Below, piece by piece: positions 24,172 to 27,118 of a stretch of DNA of 64,000 bases; position 1 is the first letter of the stretch, and each line of letters opens with the position of its first letter. The position numbers and the translations under genes were made by a program. Source of the DNA: an uncultured Bdellovibrionales bacterium (lineage in GTDB: Bacteria > Bdellovibrionota > Bdellovibrionia > Bdellovibrionales > UBA1609); contig CAILEP010000034.1 of the NCBI GenBank assembly GCA_903833275.1, positions 1 through 64,000 on the forward strand, read 5' to 3'. Below the pieces are notes generated by a model. That model had not been told where the DNA came from and made no database searches. It worked only from the letters and a program-made list of their open reading frames with translations.

Positions 24172-24855
24172 TTAGAGTTCTTGGCTTTCATGGCCGTATT
24201 TCGCCATAAATTTCGACCCACGAAAGAAGAGGTCATGGCCAATCATCTGGTCATTTCGCCAGTGCCCCGCCGTGGTTTTAACTCTTTTTTGCACGGGCTT
24301 GTGAAATTTCAGCTCGGCGCGGCCGTCTTCAATGGCGTAGACAAACCAATTGAGCGATTCGATACCGGTGGCCGGGTCGGGCGGGCTCCAAAATGTGAAC
24401 TCAATCACTTCAATTTTACCGATCTTTCGAGTTAAAAGTTGAGACCACTCAACAAGATCCGATTGCTCAGGGATGGTTGCGGTGTATCGCCCAAGAGCAC
24501 TGGCCATAAAGATTTTATCGTGCCATAGCCGAATTTGAGTGCCGCCGATTTTCATGTGACAGTCTTTTTGCTTGAGGGCTTTGCCATGACACGAGGTCGG
24601 CTCAACCGCGGTCTTGGGCGACGTTTTTTTAGCAGAAACCGCCGGCTTTGCCGTCGGTAATGGGGCCGGTATTGGGTTCGCTCTTGAACTAAACGTGGGC
24701 CCCGAATTTTGGCTATTCGCTGGTGTTGATGCCGAAGTCAATGCAGGCGTCGTGCCTGAAGGTGGCGCTGAACCCGCTTCTGGATTCGCGGCTAAAGCCG
24801 TCGAAAAAGCCCAGGCAAACCCTGCAAAAACAAAAATATTTCGAGCAAGCGACAT
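24172..24855 (-). CDS. Exported protein with Pro/Ala/Ser/Thr-rich linker
   Basis: Unrecognised exported protein of 227 residues. A signal peptide ending ALAA is followed by about 65 residues rich in Pro, Ala, Ser and Thr, probably an unstructured linker. A C-terminal domain of about 140 residues begins at two close cysteines (SCHG and DCHM) that may form a disulfide. The start is ATG 24855; ATG 24891 would add non-signal sequence. It is divergent from mutY with 46 bases between starts; ATGACT/TAAGAC boxes on this strand end 7 bases before the ATG but match consensus poorly. Confidence 0.6.
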   Translation of the reverse strand: MSLARNIFVFAGFAWAFSTALAANPEAGSAPPSGTTPALTSASTPANSQNSGPTFSSRANPIPAPLPTAKPAVSAKKTSPKTAVEPTSCHGKALKQKDCHMKIGGTQIRLWHDKIFMASALGRYTATIPEQSDLVEWSQLLTRKIGKIEVIEFTFWSPPDPATGIESLNWFVYAIEDGRAELKFHKPVQKRVKTTAGHWRNDQMIGHDLFFRGSKFMAKYGHESQEL

Positions 24856-24865
24856 AGTTCTTGTC

Positions 24866-24894
24866 TTATCAAACGCACACAAAGTAGTCATACT
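24866..24894 (+). promoter_or_regulatory. Predicted leaderless promoter of the mutY fusion gene
   Basis: TTATCA (24866-24871), a 17-base spacer, CATACT (24889-24894), then 7 bases to ATG 24902. No Shine-Dalgarno sequence. Confidence 0.4.
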
Positions 24895-24901
24895 CTATTC
24901 T

Positions 24902-27118
24902 ATGCAGAACCAGGCCGCCCGTCGCAATAAAAAAAAATCATACGCGCCGCTCGGCGAAGTAAGGGCGCTTTTAGCTTGGTACCATGGCCAGAAACGCGAT
25001 TTGCCTTGGCGACGAAGCCGTGACCCGTACCCCATTTGGTTGTCTGAAACGATGCTGCAGCAGACAACGACCACGGCGGTCATCCCTTATTTTGAAAAAT
25101 TCTTGCGAAACTTTCCGACCTTGAAAAGTCTCGCTCTCGCTGACGAACCCGATGTGCTCGCGCTTTGGGCGGGTCTTGGCTACTACTCTCGTGCCCGAAA
25201 TTTGCTAAAAGCCGCACGCGAATTGGCGACATTTAAGCGCTTTCCGCAGACATTTAGCGAGTTGATCGAGCTTCCGGGTTTTGGACCCTACACCGCCCGG
25301 GCCGTAAGCAGCATTGCATTCGATGAACCAGTCGGAGTACTCGACGGCAATGTCATTCGCGTACTGACTCGGCGCTTTGCTCTCAAACTCAATTGGTGGC
25401 AGCCTGTCGAGCGCGAAAAATTGCAGGCCATCGCTGATGCGATCGCCCAACCGGGCCCAAGCTCAGAGATCAATCAAGCCTTGATGGAGCTCGGGTCTCA
25501 AGTTTGCACTCCCCAAAACCCGCACTGCTTCAGCTGCCCCTGGGTCACCTCTTGCGAGGCAAAAAGAAAAAACTTAATCGCGCAGTTGCCGATGCGAAAA
25601 CCCAAACGCGCTTCCGAAATTTGGCTTTGGCGCGCACGAATCGAAACTCGCAAAAATACGGTGAAGCTGATTCTCAATAAGACAGGGCCGTTCTTAAAAA
25701 ATGCGTGGGTTTTGCCGGGTAAAATAGAACGGCTTGAAAAAAAGCCTAATAAATTTGATTTTCGTCATTCGATCACCCACCATGATATCTTTATTGAACT
25801 GAAGGGCGCTCAATTGTCAAAAAGTAGAACTCAAAACCCCGCCCCCCAAGACACGCTTTGGCTGCCCGTCGACAATCTTGAAGAAGCCCTACCCAAAGTT
25901 TCACCCTCGTCACTAATTCGCAAAGCTCTTCACCTGGCCTCTCGCAACGGGCTATTGACTGTTGGTTTTACAATGTTAATCGCCATGAGCCTCATTTCGT
26001 GCCGATCTTCTGGGCTAAAAAATACCCCGGGTGAGAATATTTCGTCGGTAAAGCAAATAGCGCCCGGGCTGACTCAACTCACGAGCAATGGTGAAAATTA
26101 TCGCCCCCAACTTTCGCCCGATGGCCAACGAATCCTATTTATTTCAGCGCAACGTGCGAACCACATACATGCCCAGATTTATGAATTTAATCTTGCGACC
26201 AATAAAGAGCGCCGAATTAGCTATCAGGATGGGACGATTTACGACGCCGTTTACGACCAAACTCCGGATCACATTCTGTATTCTAGCAACACCGATGAGA
26301 TCAAAGAAAACCCAATTTTTATTCGACAGGCTCTTTTTCGGGCCAAAAATAATTCTCAGCAAAATAACCCGACTGTTAGCGCGACCCCTTCACCAAATGC
26401 CTGGCCGCCATTTCTAGACGAAACCTTCGGCGACAACTTTGTTGAGAAACTGCCGCAAACCGATATTTATTATGGCTCTCACGACGGCCGCGAAATTAAA
26501 CGCCTCACCACCTTGCCAGGCTTCGAAGGTCAGTTGTCTTTGCGACCCCGCTCTCATGAGGCCATTATCGTCGCGAGCGACGGTATTAAAAATCACGTTC
26601 CGTTACATCTTTCGCGATTGAATTTTCAAAACGGCGCACTAAGCACCCTGAGCGCCGCCGGCGCAGTACCCCCTCAAGGCGCCACTCTGCCGGTCGCCGA
26701 ATTGTGGCCGCAAGTAAGCCCCGACGGTAAAAAACTTTTATGGAGTCATCTGCTCTCTTCAACCGAAAGCGAAATTTGGGTCGCCAATTTGACGGGCTCG
26801 TCGCAACTCGGCCAAGCGAAGAAACTAATTGCGGTGGCCGGGGCCCATGCGCTATTTGCAAAATGGTCGCCGAAAGGCGATGAAATTGTTTTCGCCTCAA
26901 ATCACGATGAAGTTCGCAATTTCGAAATCTATGTCGCCAAAAGTGACGGTAGTTGCGTTCGTCGCCTAACGACCGAATTCGGCCAAGACGTCGACCCTAT
27001 TTTTTCCCCCGACCAAAAAACTCTCTATTTTGCGAGCGATCGTACAGGGCGAAGACAAATCTATGCCCTCGTCTACAATCCTGCCCCTTGCGCCGCTACG
27101 GGTAGCCCTGTACAGTAA
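24902..27118 (+). CDS. mutY: MutY adenine glycosylase fused in frame to a TolB-like beta-propeller lipoprotein
   Basis: A single open frame of 738 residues. Residues 1 to about 350 are a complete MutY, which removes adenine mispaired with 8-oxoguanine. It has catalytic E49 in LSETMLQQT, the helix-hairpin-helix LPGFGPYTA, catalytic D148 in VLDGNVIRVL, and the [4Fe-4S] ligands C202, C209, C212 and C218 (C-x6-C-x2-C-x5-C). The C-terminal NUDIX-like recognition domain is short. Without any stop the frame continues into a hydrophobic segment and lipobox LISC (C367), then about 370 residues of PD40-type propeller blades (LSPDGQRILF, VSPDGKKLLW, WSPKGDEIVF, FSPDQKTLYFASD). A cytoplasmic DNA-repair enzyme and a periplasmic propeller are an odd pair. 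The second part is probably also made from an internal start (TTG 25955 or ATG 25973), or a stop codon was lost in the organism or the assembly. Confidence 0.85.
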   Translation: MQNQAARRNKKKSYAPLGEVRALLAWYHGQKRDLPWRRSRDPYPIWLSETMLQQTTTTAVIPYFEKFLRNFPTLKSLALADEPDVLALWAGLGYYSRARNLLKAARELATFKRFPQTFSELIELPGFGPYTARAVSSIAFDEPVGVLDGNVIRVLTRRFALKLNWWQPVEREKLQAIADAIAQPGPSSEINQALMELGSQVCTPQNPHCFSCPWVTSCEAKRKNLIAQLPMRKPKRASEIWLWRARIETRKNTVKLILNKTGPFLKNAWVLPGKIERLEKKPNKFDFRHSITHHDIFIELKGAQLSKSRTQNPAPQDTLWLPVDNLEEALPKVSPSSLIRKALHLASRNGLLTVGFTMLIAMSLISCRSSGLKNTPGENISSVKQIAPGLTQLTSNGENYRPQLSPDGQRILFISAQRANHIHAQIYEFNLATNKERRISYQDGTIYDAVYDQTPDHILYSSNTDEIKENPIFIRQALFRAKNNSQQNNPTVSATPSPNAWPPFLDETFGDNFVEKLPQTDIYYGSHDGREIKRLTTLPGFEGQLSLRPRSHEAIIVASDGIKNHVPLHLSRLNFQNGALSTLSAAGAVPPQGATLPVAELWPQVSPDGKKLLWSHLLSSTESEIWVANLTGSSQLGQAKKLIAVAGAHALFAKWSPKGDEIVFASNHDEVRNFEIYVAKSDGSCVRRLTTEFGQDVDPIFSPDQKTLYFASDRTGRRQIYALVYNPAPCAATGSPVQ
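25955..26002 (+). other. Internal signal-anchor/lipobox at the MutY-propeller junction
   Basis: From TTG 25955 the frame encodes a hydrophobic run ending in LISC, with Cys at 26000-26002. ATG 25973 lies inside it. The charged n-region expected of a lipoprotein signal would have to come from the Arg-Asn just upstream, inside the MutY end. No good Shine-Dalgarno sequence precedes either codon. Confidence 0.55.

Follow-up and report, generated by a model that had tools for sequence, protein, structure and literature searches.

The MutY proteins (TIGR01084), e.g. those of Geobacillus and E. coli, have in common with the first half of the protein described here the catalytic Glu and Asp, the Fe-S cysteines, the C-terminal 8-oxoG domain and the fold over the whole length. 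The MutY analysed here differs from the known ones in that it lacks a stop codon of its own and runs into a lipobox and a predicted exported propeller. The second half shares the propeller repeats, the fold and the predicted export with the TolB/PD40 propeller proteins, but it is not TolB itself. In the fbcH gene of Bradyrhizobium, the cytochromes b and c1 are made as a two-protein precursor that is separated at an internal signal peptide. Unlike the MutY fusion, fbcH joins two respiratory membrane proteins and relies on another signal peptidase, and it involves neither a cytoplasmic DNA enzyme nor a lipobox. The closest parallel for a polyprotein in the literature searched may be the core-E1 junction of HCV (PMC5402940). 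There the signal peptide of an exported protein forms the end of the cytoplasmic protein before it, which is released in two cuts, first by signal peptidase and then by signal-peptide peptidase. The likeness is a functional analogy only, HCV being viral and eukaryotic and using different peptidases. Gene pairs overlapping by NTGA are translationally coupled through termination-reinitiation (PMC10666635); many unfused relatives of our locus have this arrangement, whereas the fusion without a stop is coupled by continuous translation. The literature searched contained no account of a MutY fused to a lipoprotein, though an earlier report is still conceivable.

The window, i.e. the whole stretch of 64,000 nucleotides from an uncultured Bdellovibrionales bacterium that we analysed, contains a single uninterrupted frame of 738 codons from the ATG at 24902 to the TAA at 27116-27118, which encodes MutY, a hydrophobic segment, a LISC lipobox (C367) and a TolB-like propeller in this order (Table 1). 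The original prediction of a complete MutY that continues without a stop into the lipobox and a PD40 propeller is thus borne out by the sequence and by the Pfam, PDB and fold matches. The frame could be extended at the 5' end to a TTG at 24614, and a start near 24902 matches the relatives. The predicted structure consists of two confident folds and a low-confidence junction at residues 356-375, which looks like an unstructured joint. A divergent gene without Pfam or NCBIfam match adjoins mutY on the reverse strand (24172-24891).

Table 1. Features of the fused frame and candidate internal starts in the window
Feature	Coordinates	Strand	Basis
MutY part, residues 1-348: HhH-GPD catalytic domain with Fe-S cluster and C-terminal NUDIX-like 8-oxoG-reading domain	24902..25945	+	Pfam, PDB and fold matches; invariant residues
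MutY C-terminal motif P-S-S-L-I-R-K-A-L, residues 335-343, continuing here into the signal sequence	25904..25930	+	junction comparison
CTG, non-canonical internal-start candidate, MASRNGLLTVGFTMLIAMSLIS-C	25934..25936	+	sequence; apparent CTGA overlap in L029
Hydrophobic segment, residues 350-366, GLLTVGFTMLIAMSLIS, putative internal signal/anchor sequence of the lipoprotein	25949..25999	+	sequence; low-confidence 356-375
TTG, weak internal-start candidate, the window's only ATG/GTG/TTG 11-42 codons before C367; MTVGFTMLIAMSLIS-C, no basic residue	25955..25957	+	
Lipobox cysteine C367 (L-I-S-C), predicted Lgt acylation and LspA cleavage site	26000..26002	+	invariance; LspA/Lgt genes
TolB-like PD40 beta-propeller, about residues 388-729, predicted periplasmic or outer-membrane lipoprotein	26063..27088	+	Pfam, PDB, fold

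We take the N-terminal part to be a MutY because both its residues and its fold agree with this family. It has a Pfam HhH-GPD match (5.6e-18), and residues 21-272 match MutY structures in the PDB at about 1e-58, with E49 aligned to E43 of the Geobacillus MutY. The catalytic Glu and Asp (E49, D148) and the Fe-S cysteines in the spacing C-X6-C-X2-C-X5-C (C202/C209/C212/C218) are all present, and these residues as well as N150 are invariant in the alignment of the 10 fused proteins. The C-terminal NUDIX-like 8-oxoG domain is present too, with its strands predicted at 239-322. Foldseek aligned the model to full-length MutY proteins over 351-364 columns, with TM scores by target length mostly of 0.79-0.85. 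In contrast to the known MutY proteins the window protein stays under the NCBIfam equivalog cut-off of TIGR01084 (258.1 vs 286.5), which is still its best named family by far, and one of its fused relatives, L013, exceeds this cut-off (286.9); on residues and fold we would nevertheless assign the N-terminal part to MutY. P335 and L338 of the C-terminal motif are invariant and K341 is nearly so (alignment A1). The fused protein is the sole MutY of the genome, where the other HhH-GPD matches are two frames whose lengths (238 and 203 aa) led us to class them as Nth-like. The fused MutY of L049 carries an Asn-Thr/Asn-Ala low-complexity insert in its C-terminal domain (about 1146-1260).

The sequence that follows the MutY motif has the features of a lipoprotein signal, with a basic n-region (R340, K341 and R348), the hydrophobic stretch and then the LISC lipobox, whose cysteine is conserved in all the fused proteins (10/10). 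Judged from these features it is an ordinary lipoprotein signal in an internal position. In a standard lipoprotein the primary product begins with the signal, and here the signal comes after about 348 residues without a good internal start, so we would say that the product of the locus works like a lipoprotein rather than calling it a standard one. The genome encodes two LspA-type, two Lgt-type and also M50-type proteins. The propeller has a PD40 match (PF07676, 1.9e-21) and matches TolB chains in the PDB both by sequence and by fold. The possibility that it is TolB itself was rejected, its score being far below the TIGR02800 cut-off (106.3 vs 343.15); a better TolB candidate is encoded elsewhere in the genome, by a 482-aa frame (C6:147641).

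One explanation for the missing stop is that an error of sequencing or assembly has erased it, as might happen in a draft genome of 35 contigs, but we find this hardly credible, since the identical architecture is present in nine other genomes, several of which are 96-100% complete. Because the open junction recurs in these nine assembled genomes, it is neither a chance occurrence nor a stop codon lost by error, which disposes of the original suggestion that a lost stop codon might be an artefact.

We examined the mutY 3' end in about 126 loci, in 71 of which the lipobox could be placed. Across the order, the usual direct downstream neighbour of mutY is the gene for the same propeller lipoprotein. 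In a typical relative the mutY stop lies 0-15 codons past the KAL motif and the lipoprotein has a separate start codon, with a frequent stop-start overlap of the NTGA type. In L029, L062, L097 and L102 the four-base overlap is constant, but its start codon is not (ATGA, GTGA, TTGA and probably, in L029, CTGA). This constancy with a varying start suggests termination-reinitiation with a relaxed choice of the start, and termination-reinitiation is likely to be the mode in the NTGA-overlapping relatives. In four further loci (L033, L057, L095 and L103) the whole signal peptide of the lipoprotein is encoded inside the mutY 3' end in the +1 frame, a long overlap on the same strand.

The open fusion, without a mutY stop and with the frame continuing through the lipobox, was observed at 10 of the about 126 loci and in several lineages. 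It is found in the genus of the window, i.e. in the window itself and in three other species (L005, L006 and L007), in another genus of the same family (L013) and in other families (L049, L058, L060, L061 and L082). When the whole phylum was searched with a strict threshold, no full-length fusion came up beyond the order; weaker ones (like L013, L049 and L082) fall below this threshold and would have escaped the search. The fused proteins of the three species of the genus are 43-45% identical to that of the window, and the fusion has been kept by them through deep divergence. On the MutY tree a minimum of seven changes between the fused and the separate states is needed, at least three of which are forced by supported branches. 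The fusion probably originated more than once, each time when mutY, closely packed against the lipoprotein gene, lost its stop.

Two genomes of the same genus have another arrangement. In G002 (L014) the genes are separate and lie in different frames. G001 no longer has mutY, but its lipoprotein gene is still there, next to a homologue of the same divergent neighbour (L053, 4444-6194). No HhH-GPD protein, neither MutY nor Nth, could be detected in G001, a genome that is 93% complete. The homologue of the divergent neighbour is apparent beside the G001 lipoprotein at L053:4444-4953, the homology being judged by eye. With separate genes in G002 and no mutY in G001, the fusion is therefore not needed for the lipoprotein, a point that counts against the polyprotein reading given below. 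Within the genus, either one gain of the fusion and two losses or two gains would explain the distribution. Relatives with clearly separate genes had been named in the original prediction as grounds for refuting the fusion; such relatives do exist, but what they display is the ancestral arrangement of the pair, and they are no disproof of the fusion in the window.

Our preferred reading, with a probability of about 0.62, is that the locus encodes a true polyprotein made up of MutY, an internal lipoprotein signal sequence and the propeller. Since there is no stop in between, ribosomes that finish MutY must enter the lipoprotein, and the 738-residue chain is made regardless. Termination-reinitiation is impossible in the fused loci because the mutY stop codon is absent. 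The hydrophobic segment after the last helix of MutY would act as an internal N-in/C-out signal sequence, and Sec would export the propeller. Lgt would acylate C367 and LspA would cut before it, a cleavage that would have to take place behind a cytoplasmic domain of 350 residues, which weighs against this reading. The products would be an ordinary propeller lipoprotein going to the envelope and a MutY that stays at the cytoplasmic side of the inner membrane with a short hydrophobic tail at its C-terminus, which may be trimmed later by a site-2 (M50/RseP-type) protease. This reading is favoured by the retention of C367 in all the fusions, by the LspA, Lgt and M50 proteins encoded in the genome, and by the confident predicted folds of the two halves on either side of an unstructured joint.

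The same evidence bears on whether the chain could stay uncut, as a stable membrane-spanning glycosylase in which MutY is tethered to a periplasmic propeller. The single open frame would allow this and the hydrophobic segment might serve simply as a signal anchor, but such an anchor has no need for the cysteine that all ten fusions have and the genome does have Lgt and LspA, making this alternative improbable. The membrane-tethered glycosylase considered earlier is a correct description of the primary product, but it leaves out the consequence of the lipobox, namely cleavage by LspA, after which the halves need not stay joined across the membrane. The puzzle raised with it, that a repair enzyme and a secreted propeller work on opposite sides of the membrane, is eased in the same way, as the lipobox predicts that the halves are cut apart. 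Another alternative is that a cryptic ribosome frameshift or drop-off close to the mutY 3' end completes MutY as a separate protein, the fused chain being a by-product. This is more improbable still: the x-K-A-L motif of the relatives is often encoded in A-rich codons (CAA AAA G), but the window has no slippery run there (ATT CGC AAA GCT) and nothing requires such an event.

The main rival to the polyprotein is additional internal initiation, from the TTG or the CTG in the window. It would make the lipoprotein a same-frame nested gene, with the fused protein being made but most of the lipoprotein coming from a GTG, TTG, CTG or ATT inside the mutY 3' end. We compared by Fisher's test how many of the fused and of the separate loci have an ATG in frame 12-42 codons upstream of the lipobox Cys. 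Such an ATG is present in 1/10 fused vs 52/61 separate loci (p=5.7e-6; 4.5e-5 after dereplication), where the loci are partly non-independent, the fused ones representing about eight lineages with the ATG in L006 alone, and where the ATG criterion was picked after viewing the junctions, among several start-codon criteria tried. The ATG is kept in 8/8 of the loci that are in frame and yet separate. Start-type codons (ATG/GTG/TTG) occur in the fused loci as often as expected from codon usage and amino acids (10 against 9.2; 19 against 18.7). The difference between fused and separate loci was not significant in a looser test that accepted any ATG/GTG/TTG with a net positive n-region (p about 0.1), nor in the Shine-Dalgarno energies (p=0.2). 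The coding constraint of the MutY end may bar ATG while tolerating GTG and TTG.

Some fused loci are better placed for internal initiation than others. An NTG codon lies 12-24 codons before the Cys in 6/10 of them, and L005, L007, L061 and L082 have plausible GTG/TTG starts with a basic n-region, the GTG of L005 and L007 being one that would yield a textbook signal peptide (MKKALVACGLALVVSAC). The overlapping lipoprotein genes in the other frame (L033, L057, L095 and L103) must be initiated within mutY, and L029 seems to use CTG. Nested initiation may occur in the fused loci, most of all in L005, L007, L061 and L082. On the other side, 9/10 fused loci have no ATG, their NTG codons are at chance, and in L013 and L049 the stretch 11-42 codons upstream of the Cys contains neither ATG nor GTG nor TTG. 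The TTG of the window, besides lacking a basic residue, has a Shine-Dalgarno duplex of -1.1 kcal/mol, which equals the background median of -1.1, and no internal promoter or terminator near the window junction rose above the shuffled sequences. A maintained internal start together with a ribosome-binding signal, by which a same-frame nested gene would be recognised, is thus not seen in these data. The internal initiation put forward earlier as an option gains no support from them. Because the ATG is lost, start-type codons are at chance and L013, L049 and the window have no good candidate, we would say that the lipoprotein mostly does not have its own start in the fused loci, and we consider the nested gene rather unlikely.

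The polyprotein reading could be carried further. We speculate that MutY arises only as the N-terminal portion of a lipoprotein precursor and stays bound to the inner membrane until it is released by LspA and an intramembrane protease. The amount of active MutY would then depend on the processing of an envelope lipoprotein, a link that would have evolved several times in one order. We put this forward tentatively, as a doubtful extension.

The fusion is more than the oddity of a single genome. Open frames of this kind are genuine, and annotators should neither split nor 'correct' them; the natural series of separate, overlapping and fused pairs opens the transition to study. If the polyprotein reading is true, the locus would be a bacterial case in which a DNA-repair enzyme of the cytoplasm and an exported lipoprotein are made as one polyprotein and then separated by lipoprotein signal peptidase, and neighbouring genes would readily fuse across a compartment border where a lipobox can cut the products apart.
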